Below, one piece after another: positions 24,350-64,000 of a stretch of 64,000 nt of DNA. The notes below the pieces were generated by a model. It was not told where the DNA came from. It made no database searches and saw only the letters and a program-made list of their open reading frames with translations. Made by a program: the position numbers and the translations under genes. The stretch comes from Nannobrachium achirus (Eukaryota; Chordata; Actinopteri; Myctophiformes; Myctophidae): the NCBI GenBank assembly GCA_963921795.1, contig OY997651.1, forward strand, positions 54,812,489 through 54,876,488, given 5' to 3'. Every line of letters begins with the position of its first letter. The first letter of the stretch is position 1.

Positions 24350-25485
24350 CTACACGTCTGTATCTAAAAGTTGAAACAAAGATGCATTTTAAAAACGTCA
24401 GCGTTTTGCTGTTACTACGTGTCATCTGTTCGACACCCAACTCTTACCCTAAACCTAACCTCCGTGGGGTGAGCCGCTAACCCTTCCGACGCTCCTTTGT
24501 CGAAATGACGGTCGTTCGAAAGAGCGAGATTTCCCCTACTGAGTCATTGAACATCATGTTGTTTATTATTTTATCCACTGGGTTTCTTTAACTGTGGAAT
24601 ATGAAGAAATGAATCCCCATTCCCCACTCATTCAGAGTGTTGCCATTCATTGAGTTCCATTTTCATTCCATCTCAACAGATCACAGATGTCTTTGCTCAC
24701 TGGAATTTCACTCAACGTGCATTTCATTCTTGGCTCTGGTGCTACTAATGCGTATCTGATGCTAACATTATGGCATGAGAACCCTTAAAGCACAATTAAA
24801 CTTTGGTATAGATTTAGTTTATAAACCAATAAGGCCAAAAAAGAACAGTGTTTTGTAATGTTATTCTTTCATACACACATACTGTATACTTCGGGGCTTG
24901 GCCAAACCCGCCATTGCTTCTCCAGGTGAAACAACACAAGCTTTCTCCATTGGAATTGCATTATGGAAGGTACACGTTACATTTTATTGACTTATTTTGT
25001 CAAAGCGCAACAGATGGTGAAGTATTTGTACAGTATAGTAGAGCAGTTGCAACAACCACCGATCTATTAAAGAGTGAAAACGGGACTGCCAAATATTCGT
25101 AACTTTCAGCGATTCCGCCAATAATGTATTCTTTGAGACACACATCAGAGTTTTTCTCAGGCCAAACAAAGGAATCACGTGACGTTATCCCCTTCGCCTA
25201 TTCGCTCATACTAGGACATGACAAACGTGTAGGCAGAGGAATACATTAACAGAATCAACTTTGTTCATGGTTCTTTGTGTGTGCTATGTGTGACCTTGAG
25301 ATGAGTTTTTCCCATGTAATATGAGTCAATGGGGAGATTATTTTGGATGATACATTTTGACTCACTAAGAAGTTACAAGAAAAAATAAAATAACACAAAA
25401 TAAAACAAATCGAGTGATACCTCTAAACCTGAACTCATTTTCCAAATGGAATAATTTTACTGTATCTTGAAAGTATATACTGTAC

Positions 25486-26905
25486 CATTTTCATAGTCAT
25501 CAGAGTGATCGATTACTCCATAGACGCTTGTGTCACCTGAAGGTAAACAAAAGTAAACATTAATGTTTTGCTTATTGTTGTTATTTCACACATGGTTTTA
25601 ATTTAGTTAATTAATTAATTGTTTAGTAAATGGTTTATTTTTAATTTGAAGTCAAAACGAATTTATTTATATTTAAATTGGAAAGAGTTGTTCTTGTCAG
25701 AAGGGTCCTTGACCAACATGATTGGTTCAAAAACTGACCGTGCTGCAGTGGGCAGTACACATCATCAGGAGCCCCACTTTGATTGGTCCCCTGGTCAGCT
25801 GAGCCCTGATTGGCTCCCTGAGACTGAACTGCCCTGTAAAGATATATATTTAGCAGAAATGAAATAGAAATCTTCTGAAATCTATAGGAATGTGTATAAT
25901 ATATATATATATACATATATATATATATATATATATATAAAAGATTATTAATAGTGATTATTAACAGTCCGAGTACTGTACTTACCAGACAGGTGGCCCT
26001 GTAAAAAATAAAGAGCATGAAAAAAAAAAAAAAAAAAAGGATTTGTGCCATTAAGCATTGAACAGTACAATTGATATGCCATGGAAATCAAAGTAGTCTA
26101 TAATTTAAAGAGGTTTACTCTGTGATTGTAATCAAGATCTGAGGTTCTCAAACATCTGTTATATCTAACTATTAATTTAGCCGAATGAACAAATGACCCA
26201 TTAATGTCAATATTCTATAATCAAACCAAATGAAATAATTTTCTGAAAGTATATACTGTACCATTTTCATAGTCATCAGAGTGATCGATTACTCCATAGA
26301 CGCTTGTGTCACCTGAAGGTAAACAATAGTAAACATTAATGTGGTGCTTTATTGTTGTTATTTCAGGTTTCAAGTTAGTTAAAGGTCGAGCAAGTGGGTC
26401 GAGCAAGTGGGTAAATCTTTTGGTCAAAATTAAAACACTTTTGTATGATAGTAATCATTGCTAATGCTATAGAGTGTTTGTTCAGTAATAGGTCTCTCCC
26501 TGTCTACTATCCATCTCTTTAATGAACAGAAAATGCATTTTCAGGTGGGTGTCCAATAGGACAAAAAACAAAACTGACTAATGTTAACATACTTCCAAAA
26601 AGCACATTCTAAATTCATTTATATTTAAATTAGAAAAGTTGTTCTTGTCAGAAGGGTCCTTGACCAACATGATTGGTTCAAAAACTGACCGTGCTGCAGT
26701 GGGCAGTACACATCATCAGGAGCCCCACTTTGATTGGTTCCCTGGTCAGCTGAGCCCTGATTGGCTCCCTGAGACTGAACTGCCCTATAATTAGATATAT
26801 TTAGCACAAATGAAGTAGAAATCTAGAAATGTATTAAGTAGGAATCTATTCACGACGTGATTATTAATATACAGTAATACTGTACTTACTGGACACAACA
26901 TGGAT
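25486..26905 (-). CDS. FCR4 duplicated cytoplasmic tail module
   Basis: Two copies of the same three-exon block follow one another. First: 26890-26905 (16 nt), 26690-26784 (95 nt), 26262-26312 (51 nt). Second: 25986-25998 (13 nt), 25739-25833 (95 nt), 25486-25536 (51 nt). The 95-nt exon codes AVQSQGANQGSADQGTNQSG then APDDVYCPLQH. The 51-nt exon codes GDTSVYGVIDHSDDYEN. SVYGVI fits the ITIM consensus, YCPL is YxxL with Asp at -2, and YEN fits a pYxN GRB2-type site. Introns as well as exons are similar between the blocks, so whole genomic DNA was duplicated. FCR1 has the same doubled layout. Confidence 0.75.
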
Positions 26906-61076: not shown

Positions 61077-64000
61077 CTACACGTCTGTATCTAAAGGTTG
61101 AAACAAAGACACACTTAAAACAGGATACTGAGTCATTGAACATCATTATTTTATCCACTGGGTTTCTTTAACTGTGGAATATGAAGAAATGAATCATACA
61201 AAGTCTTGCCATTCAGTTCCATTTTCATTCCATCTCAACAGATCACAGATATCTTTGCTAAAATTTCCGTCAACATCCATTTAATTCTCAGCTCTGGTGT
61301 TTTTAATCAGTGTCTGATGCTAACATTATGGTATGAGAACCCTTAAAGCACAATTAAACGTTGGTGTAGATTTAGTTTGAGATTCGTTTTTCTCATTTCC
61401 AGTGATCGATAAAGATATCAAGGGGGTTCTCAATTAAAGATTTTTCATGTCAAGGACCCCCCCCTTACTTTTCTTCTTTTTTATTACCCTAAAAGGGTCT
61501 GTTACTCTGAGAGTGTACAGATGATACCTTTGAACCTGAACTCATTTTCCAACTGAAATAATTTGACTGAAGTTTATACTGTACCATTTTCATAGTCATC
61601 AGAGTGATCGATTACTCCATAGACGCTTGTGTCACCTGAAGGTTAACAATAGTAAGCATTAATGTGGTGTTTATTGTTGCTATTTCACACATGCATGTTT
61701 CTATGTAGTAAATTATTCTGCTATTTAGAAAAAATAAACAAAAAACAAAACTGACAGATGTTAACATACTTCCAAAAAGCACATTCATTGTTTAATGAAT
61801 GAAGGTGTATTTTTAATTTGAAGTCAAAATGAATTTATATTTATATTTCTTGTTGACCAACATGATTGGTTTAAAAACTGACCGTGCTGCAGTGGGCAGT
61901 ACACATCATCAGGAGCTCCACTCTGATTGGTCCCCTGGACCGCTGAGCCCTGATTGGCTCCCTGAGACTGAACTGCTCTGCAATTAAAATATAATTTAGC
62001 AGAAATTGAGTAGAAATCTTCTGAAATAGAAAAGTACATTTAAACAAACTATCGCTGTCATGATTATTAATAGACAGTAATACCTGACACGTGGTCCTGT
62101 AAAAATAAAGAACAGAAAAGAAAGACAGAAAAAACATTACAATTGCTTTGCCATGGAAATAAATGTATAATTTAAAGAGAGTTACTTAGTGACTGTAATC
62201 AAGATCAGCAGGTCTCAAATATTGACTCCTAATGTCAATATTCTATAATAAAACCAAATGAAATAATTTGACTGAATCTTGAATGTATACTGTACCATTT
62301 TCATAGTCATCAGAGTGATCGATTACTCCATAGACGCTTGTGTCACCTGAAGGCAAACAATAAGCATTAATGTAGTCTGTGGTGCTTTACTGTTGTTATT
62401 GCAGGTTTCAATTTAGATGGTAAGTGATATATTTTGGTTGAAACAAAACATTTTATTAAAAATAGTAATCATGTCTATAGAGTGTTTGTTCAGGGTCTCC
62501 CTGTCTATCCAGCTCTAAACAGAACAGGCATTTTCAGGTGGGTGGCCAATCTTCAGCCAATCACCCATTTATCAGCTTAAATTTGAATAATTGTAGTGTT
62601 CCAGTTCCATTTGTGTCAGCTAATTTCTTTGTCATCACTTCTAAATTCACTTGTTAATCCTGTGTACTGAGTGAGTTCTGTCTCCTGATTGGATAAATGT
62701 GGTGTCCTGACCTGAAAATTGATTTTCTGTTTAATCAAGAGCTGGAGGAATGGAGAAACCCCTGTTACTGAACAATGAGTAATAAGAATATAAAGCAATT
62801 TAATTTAAAAGTCTTATTTTAACAAATATAATTTACCCTACCTTTAATTATTCTGCCATTAAAAAAAGGAAAAAAAAGACTGATACTTCAAAAACATTCA
62901 TTCATTATTTAATGAATGAAGGTTTATTTGCCAGACCCATGAAATGGGTAGGCCTACATAAGCAAATGTCGGTCCGGGTTTTCTATATAAAGGGTATATA
63001 TGATGATGACATGATGACATGCCTACAAAAGGCATGATGTCATAAATGATGATGACAGACAGGGGGTCTGGCACAACCAGGTTGACCTGGTCTAGTTTTA
63101 ATTTGAAGTTGTCATTTTGATTGGTTCAAAAACTGACCGTGCTGCAGTGGGCAGTACACATCATCAGGAGCCCCACTCTGATTGGTCCCCTGGTCAGCTG
63201 AGCCCTGATTGGCTCCCTGAGACTGAACTGCACTGTAATTAAAATATATATTTAGCAGAATTTAAGTAGAAATCTAGAAATGTGTTACTGTAAGTAAGAA
63301 TCTAATTGGCATGTTTATTAATAGACAGAGTAATACTGTACTTACCTGACACAACATGGATCTGTAAAAAGAGAGAGAGAGAGAGAGAGAGTGTGTGAGA
63401 GAGAGAGAGAGAGAGAGAGAGAGAGAGAGAGAGAGCAAAATAATTTTGCCAGGGATCACTTACTAGATTTGTGTTGTAAACATATTCTAAAAGTGTTTTC
63501 AAGAGTTTATGGGAATAGCAGATCTACAAGTTCACACAACACGTCTTGATGCAATGTGTTCAAATAGCCAATGTATGAAGAGGTTAAACGGACTTTGATG
63601 CTATAATAACACATTCTGACCCCACTTTGGGAACCACTGAAGATGAAATCCATCTAATGTAGTAGTTCTCACCTTTGAATGTACTATATGGACACAGCAG
63701 GAGCAGAAAGATAGTCTGTAGAATCTCTACAGAGTTCCGTAAATTCAATTACTAAATCAAGACTGTATTTAAGCATATTAAATCATTAGGACTTAAAACG
63801 TAATCATTGCCTTTTCAAAATGGCCCCCAAGTACCTCACTGCCACGTTCCTAAATTTCTAGTGCACGGATCAATTTTTAGTGCACGGATCGTGCACCATG
63901 CCATATGTCGTATGTGTAGTACTTTTTAACAGCTTTCAAACAAAAAAATCCCCTTGGAAATCCATTCAGGCATTCATGAGATAGACGCCTTCAAAGTCAA
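61077..64000 (-). CDS. FCR1: 3' part of a fourth Fc-receptor-like gene (partial)
   Basis: Visible exons (minus strand): 63346-63361, 63138-63232, 62296-62346, 62084-62096, 61883-61977, 61585-61635 and terminal 61077-61090 with TAG. Lengths (16, 95, 51, 13, 95, 51, 14 nt) and phases are the same as in FCR4, so the tail module is also doubled here. The 95-nt exons contain APDDVYCPLQH, the 51-nt exons contain SVYGVIDHSDDYEN, and the C-terminus is DTDV. Signal, Ig and TM exons would lie beyond the right edge. The donor of 62084-62096 is GTATTA, weaker than its counterparts. Whether the gene is intact cannot be judged here. Confidence 0.72.
63370..63436 (+). repeat. (GA)n at the FCR1 exon 6 acceptor
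   Basis: Read on the gene strand this is a (CT)n tract directly before the AG of exon 63346-63361. Equivalent expansions are (GAAA)n at 26928-26980 in FCR4 and 38104-38142 in FCR3. Confidence 0.82.
63673..63725 (-). pseudogene. TM exon fragment in FCR1
   Basis: Reads IFLLLLCPYSTFK followed by GTGAGA, matching the end of the receptor TM exon. It lacks the stalk and the first half of the helix, and shares its upstream breakpoint sequence with 38418-38460, so the duplication predates FCR1/FCR3 separation. Confidence 0.55.

Follow-up and report, generated by a model that had tools for sequence, protein, structure and literature searches.

Probable tandem array of paired activating and inhibitory FCRL/LITR-type receptor genes in Nannobrachium achirus, two of them recently broken

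Introduction

A 64,000-nucleotide stretch of the Nannobrachium achirus genome (C14:54,812,489-54,876,488; hereafter the window) carries minus-strand genes for receptors with two immunoglobulin (Ig) domains, D1 and D2, and two neighbouring genes, c1 and c2, are both damaged in the D2 exon. The locus raises the question of what kind of receptor family is encoded here, why the same exon is hit in two neighbours, and what the damaged genes might still produce. We consider it highly likely that the window covers a section of a tandem array in which activating and inhibitory receptors of the FCRL/LITR type are paired, and that c1 and c2 were recently broken in the course of the turnover of this array.

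Genes were modelled on the minus strand, with the reading extended past the window end to 54,940,488, and the searches for each exon type covered the whole 1.66-Gb genome. Units are numbered in plus-strand order, so that c1, c2, c3 and c4 correspond to FCR4, FCR3, FCR2 and FCR1 of an initial annotation of the same DNA.

Results

Three complete two-Ig receptor units are present within the window: c1 (32.6-25.4 kb), c2 (42.5-36.7 kb) and c3 (56.2-50.5 kb), all on the minus strand (Table 1). For a fourth unit, c4, the window holds the tail alone (63.2-61.5 kb). Its D1 and D2 exons, both open, are found ~9-10 kb past the window end, and its signal exons together with units c5, c6 and c7 are also sited beyond the window, bringing the array to at least seven units. 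One of them, c5, has three Ig domains, namely D1, D2 and a second D2-like domain. The initial annotation described four two-Ig genes with shared exon lengths, phases and sequence. The tandem arrangement, the exon order, the phases and the kinship of the members all stand; the number does not, as three units in the window have Ig exons and the array runs on past it, nor does the sharing of all lengths, given stalk/transmembrane (TM) exons of 138 to 228 nt and two kinds of tail. Clusters of the family are located on one chromosome (C14) at 51.88-52.08, 53.95-54.06 and 54.84-54.93 Mb. With at least seven units, sister clusters on the same chromosome and broken members adjacent to intact ones, birth-and-death turnover of a tandem receptor family, as initially proposed, is well supported.

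The first coding exon (SP1) is 31 nt long (28 in c4), and its ATG and GTGAGT donor are kept in c1, c2, c3, c4, c6 and c7; a search by SP1 sequence pattern did not find this exon in c5. The second signal exon (SP2) has 36 nt (51 in c4). Undamaged D1 exons measure 267-285 nt and undamaged D2 exons 264-276 nt, and all Ig exons are symmetric, in phase 1-1. A 16-nt mini exon is found in c1, c2, c3, c5 and c7, with 13 nt in the second copy of c1. The translation of c3, claimed earlier to be fully open, indeed has no internal stop between the signal peptide and the TGA in the last tail exon. Unit c5 is open with its three Ig domains as far as the first tail exon, c4 is open in the assembled exons, and c6 and c7 are open in theirs up to the TM. 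Each gene would encode a type I membrane protein whose signal peptide comes from two exons and is followed by two Ig domains, or three in the case of c5, then by a stalk rich in Thr and Pro, a single TM helix and a tail with tyrosine motifs. Degenerate TM-like exons are seen in c2 (38415-38483, beside a good TM exon) and in c4 (63671-63730).

The cytoplasmic tails separate the units into two kinds. In c1, c2 and c4, an immunoreceptor tyrosine-based activation motif (ITAM) is split across two exons, which upon joining encode DDVYCPLQHGDTSVYGVI and fit the canonical ITAM pattern; the exon pair is duplicated in c1 and c4. The tail of c3 carries four motifs resembling immunoreceptor tyrosine-based inhibition or switch motifs (ITIM/ITSM; listed in Table 1). 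In a motif scan, c5 yields all four, with SIYSQV as the last one, and c6 and c7 yield three apiece, SLYSEV not being among them. The inhibitory genes still keep a homologue of the first ITAM half that has no tyrosine, EDGLSPLQHG (c3, c5 and, but for one letter, c6) versus DDVYCPLQHG. Judging from these motifs, activation of the cell through Syk-type kinases would be expected of the split-ITAM members (c1, c2, c4), and its restraint through SHP-type phosphatases of the ITIM/ITSM members (c3, c5, c6, c7). Relatives of the first ITAM exon were present in all 150 places scored, out of 408 candidates, including the genomic regions C4:71.7-74.1 Mb and C1:64-67 Mb. Dozens of equal-scoring, 70% identical matches to this exon fall within one 2.4-Mb stretch of genomic C4.

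The outer domains and the activating tails differ strongly in their variability. The mean pairwise difference of the ITAM exon is 3.2% among the 11 copies compared, and D1 and D2 show ~0.2 nonsynonymous changes per site. The Ig domains diversify in their middle loops, over ITAM exons that are nearly fixed. On trees of the D1 and D2 exons (18 rows each), the tail kinds need five and four changes, respectively, compared to a mean of 5.8 for shuffled assignments, and none of 200 bootstrap trees needs just one change of tail type. In the D1 tree, c2 groups with the inhibitory c6 (support 85/88), and on both trees activating and inhibitory members with similar outer domains interleave, albeit at weak forks. 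At the sequence level, this suggests that tail type does not clearly track the ancestry of the Ig domains, hinting at a reshuffling of outer parts and tails.

To what extent does the sequence fix the family? When the joined D1-D2 of c3 is compared with solved structures by phmmer, the best match is FCRL5 (E 9e-21 summed over domains, 4e-4 for the best single stretch), followed by LILRB3, FCRL4, LILRB2, FcgammaRI, FcgammaRII and FCAR (10 distinct sequences matched). The Pfam family Ig_2 scores above cut-off for three D1 exons (Table 1) and below it for c3 D2 (17.6 of 27 bits). At E 0.01, the four exons match Ig_2, Ig_3 and ig and no V-set; yet the predicted Ig fold of c3 D2 (modelled from two sequences; predicted local distance difference test, pLDDT, in Table 1) has the V-type PD-1 among its top fold matches together with KIR2DL4, with LILR and Fc receptors placed lower. 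A V-type outer Ig domain is a trait of the NITR, NILT and PIGR families. The array combines an FcR-like D1-D2, symmetric phase-1 Ig exons, a two-exon signal peptide (the first exon of c5 excepted) and both kinds of tail. The 30/21 bp signal-exon rule of mammalian-type FCRL is not followed, the exons here having 31 and 36 nt. The initial assignment to FCRL-type genes is hence borne out in part: an FCRL/LITR-type identity is supported by sequence, with FCRL5 as the best solved relative, while LILRB3 and others match too and FCRL and fish LITR cannot be told apart here.

As initially annotated, c1 and c2 are each broken by one simple lesion in D2. Alignment of c1 D2 with seven other D2 exons shows that an AG run near 28556 is longer by two bases, and the shifted frame reaches a TAG before the last Ig strand, as placed by the c3 D2 model. 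We propose that c1 would have been lost by slippage in this AG repeat, as part of the array turnover. Leaving out D2, c1 forms a single open frame from the signal peptide through D1 and the TM to two ITAMs and a TAA. A second frameshift of this kind occurs in a GA run of the a5 D1 exon (L006 ~330-352), and the pair suggests that the GA/AG runs of these Ig exons are a slippage hot spot. The change in c1 might also be an assembly or allele artefact, c1 then being a working two-Ig activating receptor. Its placement in an AG run, the open remainder of c1 and the commonest motif form encoded by both of its ITAM exons would agree with this; the a5 frameshift, however, makes genuine slippage plausible in the family, though a5 could be an artefact too. 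Altogether, we give an artefact in c1 a small chance.

The D2 exon of c2 is split by a 495-bp insertion, consisting of a 486-bp element, one extra base (39729) and an 8-bp duplicated target, which identifies the simple lesion described initially as a transposon insertion. Elements of the hAT type are characterized by CAGGG-type inverted repeats and 8-bp target duplications. From its CAGGG-beginning inverted repeats and the 8-bp duplication we take the c2 element to be of the hAT type. Out of 4,345 candidate places for this element family, 40 were scored, and eight copies were fetched and aligned. Their 8-bp duplications are exact in L073, L074 and L076, contain one mismatch in L070 and L072, and are shifted or unclear in L069, L071 and L075. 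The duplication of the c2 copy is exact, plus the one extra base. Against the majority sequence of the other copies, the c2 copy shows 18 differences over 471 positions (3.8%; 2.1-9.3% for the eight others). No other stop or frameshift was found in c2, and its frame without D2 is open into the ITAM. Insertion of the hAT-type element would account for the loss of c2 within the array turnover. At 2508-2568 lies a 61-bp fragment that matches the 5' end of the element with 92% similarity.

Going by the genome sequence, the standard two-Ig receptor is made by neither c1 nor c2. The D2 exon is symmetric (phase 1-1), so that its skipping keeps the frame in both genes, and a one-Ig activating receptor is, on the predicted exons, the most likely residual product of either gene, if expressed. 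Both may simply be pseudogenes. With c2 there is a clean case of the question whether a DNA element newly inserted into a vertebrate exon is fatal, skipped with the exon, or spliced out.

The last of these outcomes would leave c2 intact, with the element removed as a new spliceosomal intron whose donor stems from the duplicated target and whose acceptor lies in the element. Splicing from CAAG/GTAACA to TGAATCAG/GGG (the slash marks the junction) would remove 477 nt and leave c2 open from the signal peptide into the ITAM. In the predicted product, six additional residues, GAQHVP, lengthen the C-C' turn of D2, which in the model lies between the predicted strands C and C' and varies in length within the family. 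The acceptor is positioned 18 nt before the 3' end of the element, and the stretch, TGAATCAG or TAAATCAG, is kept in the eight aligned copies. The donor tops all GT sites listed under a vertebrate matrix (6.8). Under matrices trained on the array, which are independent of that matrix and built from predicted sites, both sites are weak: the donor scores 4.5, where the 10% quantile of the predicted sites of the family is 7.8, and the acceptor 1.4, where it is 1.6. Furthermore, 165 in-frame open GT-AG pairs exist, among which the proposed pair ranks seventh, and an equal or better acceptor arises in 12% of 2,000 shuffled insertions. The own donor of c2 D2 reads GTCAGT, where seven other D2 exons have GTGAGT, though GTCAGT is likewise the donor of ITAM exons in c1 and c2. 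No copy of the junction was seen elsewhere in the genome among 40 scored of 80 candidates. The candidate intron is therefore frame-compatible but not statistically special.

The lack of further lesions in c2 could also speak for splicing. In simulations with assumed indel rates, the probability of finding none is 0.003 at 3.8% neutral divergence and 0.44 at 0.5%, so that this lack fits a young insertion or constraint alike. A donor from the target duplication combined with an acceptor from the element is the geometry described for introners in other eukaryotes (PMC9860276). According to the same survey, vertebrates show no pattern of introner gain. Weighing these points, we find it improbable that c2 is kept intact by splicing of the element. 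The fuller scenario is a shade less probable still: a recent hAT-type element in c2 D2 became a spliced intron, with its donor from the duplication and its acceptor from the conserved stretch leaving 18 in-frame bases, and the whole element family could have the role of an introner in N. achirus. Disruption of c2 by the insertion is the reading we prefer.

The co-occurrence of lesions in the D2 exons of two neighbours, c1 and c2, was initially taken as a sign of relaxed selection on that domain, which would let lesions gather there. For the undamaged exons of the three C14 clusters and one C18 gene, the pooled ratio of nonsynonymous to synonymous substitution rates (dN/dS) is 1.26 (0.91-1.73) for D1 and 1.43 (1.04-2.03; bootstrap) for D2, so the two domains are not clearly different. 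The D1 set holds 19 exons (18 of 18 full C14 matches) and the D2 set 17 (16 of 21 full C14 matches), each including the C18 gene; both D2 of a8, the second D2 of c5, and the D2 of a1 and b4 were left out. For the array alone, with seven genes each, the values are 1.61 (1.15-2.51) for D1 and 1.53 (0.92-2.66) for D2, the c1 codons at the insertion and the c2 element being left out but for two codons. Pairwise dN exceeds dS in 126 of 171 D1 pairs and 121 of 136 D2 pairs. The proportion of nonsynonymous differences (pN) is highest mid-domain (0.36-0.41) and drops to 0.03-0.09 in the most conserved segments; at the D1 peak, the synonymous proportion (pS) is half of pN. This pattern resembles diversifying selection on both D1 and D2, not relaxed selection on D2.

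The distribution of lesions points in the same direction. Over the three clusters, 2 of 20 D1 exons and 3 of 24 D2 exons are damaged (Fisher p 1.0), the counts resting on exon matches scoring the best candidates and missing exons too decayed to match. The D1 lesions are the GA-run frameshift of a5 and a decayed exon in a8; the damage in b1 (two TGA) is taken from the match table alone. Together with the strongly conserved segments of D2, these values make relaxed selection on D2 very improbable as the reason for the shared position of the two lesions.

A different bias could stem from the tails. In mammalian paired receptors, activating members are described as decaying faster than inhibitory ones, and c1 and c2 might exemplify that process. 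The two broken genes of the array both belong to the activating kind, and the assembled exons of the four inhibitory genes showed no lesion. Even so, damage in 2 of 3 activating versus 0 of 4 inhibitory genes gives p 0.14 for the array alone, and 4 of 13 versus 1 of 8 gives p 0.61 over the three clusters. In the latter count, tail kinds outside the array were assigned by the nearest downstream tail match, the missing matches of a1 (D2 and tail matches only) and a2 (no TM match) were not taken as lesions, and b3, having no tail match, was dropped. Faster decay of activating genes is thus suggestive within the array and not significant over three clusters, and we regard it as an unlikely but conceivable cause of the losses of c1 and c2.

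The remaining observations concern repeats and flanks. A 41-bp minisatellite directly follows the first signal exon in c1 (32305-32606) and c2 (42136-42470), and a similar one is present in c6 beyond the window. In the flank outside the array, a 42-bp tandem repeat is found in eight copies (8376-8719). On the plus strand, 18466-20106 is an open frame of 546 aa whose end resembles a Cys/His knuckle and which may encode a retroelement gag-type protein.

Table 1. Predicted features of receptor units c1 to c4 and of the element inserted in c2 (positions refer to the window)
Feature	Coordinates	Strand	Remarks
c1 SP1	32609..32639	-	31 coding nt; conserved ATG and GTGAGT donor
c1 SP2	30851..30886	-	36 nt
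c1 D1 Ig exon, open	30404..30682	-	Pfam Ig_2 6.7e-10
c1 D2 Ig exon, frameshifted	28501..28772	-	alignment with seven other D2 exons, translation, c3 D2 model for strands
c1 stalk and TM exon	27222..27401	-	
c1 ITAM exon pair 1	26262..26784 (26690-26784 + 26262-26312)	-	YCPL-x7-YGVI
c1 ITAM exon pair 2, tandem duplicate	25457..25833 (25739-25833 + 25457-25536)	-	ends TAA
c2 SP1	42483..42513	-	
c2 SP2	41048..41083	-	
c2 D1 Ig exon, open	40568..40843	-	Pfam Ig_2 2.6e-8
c2 D2 Ig exon, split by insertion	39096..39860	-	donor GTCAGT
Target duplication GTAACAAA, 5' copy	39730..39737	-	starts candidate 5' splice site CAAG/GTAACA
hAT-type non-autonomous element	39243..39728	-	14-bp terminal inverted repeats (one mismatch) CAGGGATGTGCTGG/CCAGCACGTCCCTG; aligned with eight genomic copies
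Target duplication GTAACAAA, 3' copy	39235..39242	-	
c2 stalk and TM exon	38664..38846	-	
c2 ITAM exon pair	36761..37958 (37864-37958 + 36811 to at least 36761)	-	
c3 SP1	56202..56232	-	
c3 SP2	55743..55778	-	
c3 D1 Ig exon	55147..55425	-	Pfam Ig_2 2.7e-7
c3 D2 Ig exon, intact	53582..53854	-	predicted Ig fold, mean pLDDT 80
c3 stalk and TM exon	53217..53444	-	
c3 inhibitory tail exons	50487..52319 (52222-52319, 51954-52028, 51391-51459, 51097-51162, 50487-50644)	-	VTYSQI, SLYSEV, VTYAQV, TIYSQV, then TGA
c4 tail, two ITAM exon pairs	61571..63231 (63136-63231 + 62285-62347; 61881-61976 + 61571-61636)	-	Ig exons beyond window

Discussion

Several observations weigh against the picture of a paired array whose diversifying members are lost by simple lesions. 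All exon junctions are predictions. The assembled part of c4 beyond the window lacks a TM and a tail, its TM exon being placed at 64,001-69,000 in window coordinates, outside the stretch that was read. The TM of c6 and the D1 of c7 are open only if their acceptors are moved downstream, by 15 and 9 nt respectively, from the usual exon start. The 2-bp change in c1, judged from the assembly alone, is possibly an assembly error. Shuffled tail assignments score as low as the real ones in 147 of 500 cases for D1 and in 43 of 500 for D2; most forks of the trees are weak, and the well-supported branches force only one and two changes. Concerning selection, the dN/dS interval of D1 includes 1, and gene conversion can distort the values of both domains. 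At the D2 peak, pS is as high as pN (0.43 and 0.40), indicating that the excess seen for D2 has its source in other parts of the domain or in the alignment.

The proposed fate of the c2 element can be compared with that of introners. Terminal inverted repeats, a target duplication and the arrangement of the two splice sites are shared with them (PMC9860276), whereas the c2 case is predicted, its sites are weak and it concerns one exon. Intron gains in fish have been linked by their authors to genome compaction and repair (PMC3151243). A prior report of an element-made vertebrate intron was not found in the literature searched, most subscription journals being outside that scope, and the phrase "SOS splicing" of transposons did not occur in the eight papers retrieved on that subject.

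The receptors themselves resemble several known families. With the FCRL and FcR of vertebrates they share FCRL5 as nearest solved relative, the D1-D2 order, the two-exon signal peptide, the phase-1 Ig exons and motifs of the ITIM, ITSM and ITAM kind, which are described for that family along with the 30/21 signal-exon rule of mammalian FCRL1-6 (PMC2413239). It is in the lengths of the signal exons that they depart from mammalian FCRL1-6. The LITR of channel catfish likewise form a fish Ig receptor family with stimulatory and inhibitory types; they are polymorphic and distantly related to FcR, FCRL, KIR and LILR (PMC4810170), and some of their domains resemble FcR D1-D2 (PMC2413239). In contrast to the stimulatory LITR 2.6b, which uses an ITAM-bearing adaptor, the activating members here would carry the ITAM in their own tail; for LITR, this comparison is one of descriptions only.

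A parallel in organization is offered by the XFL family of Xenopus, a big lineage-specific expansion with intermingled activating and inhibitory members and exon recombination between genes (PMC2413239). The presumed activating XFL differ in having little or no tail and an NxxR motif in the TM, where the present members have an ITAM in cis. Frogs and fish are already known to possess FcR-like families that have expanded into paired sets of activating and inhibitory receptors (PMC2413239, PMC4810170), to which the present array adds one more, and a like family is described in birds (PMC3601082). A solution that recurs in vertebrate immunity is the paired receptor whose outer domains change fast while its activating or inhibitory tail stays fixed. 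The array would be an instance of that solution in which the ITAM is placed in the receptor itself, twice in two members, and in which the members are found in several states of repair.

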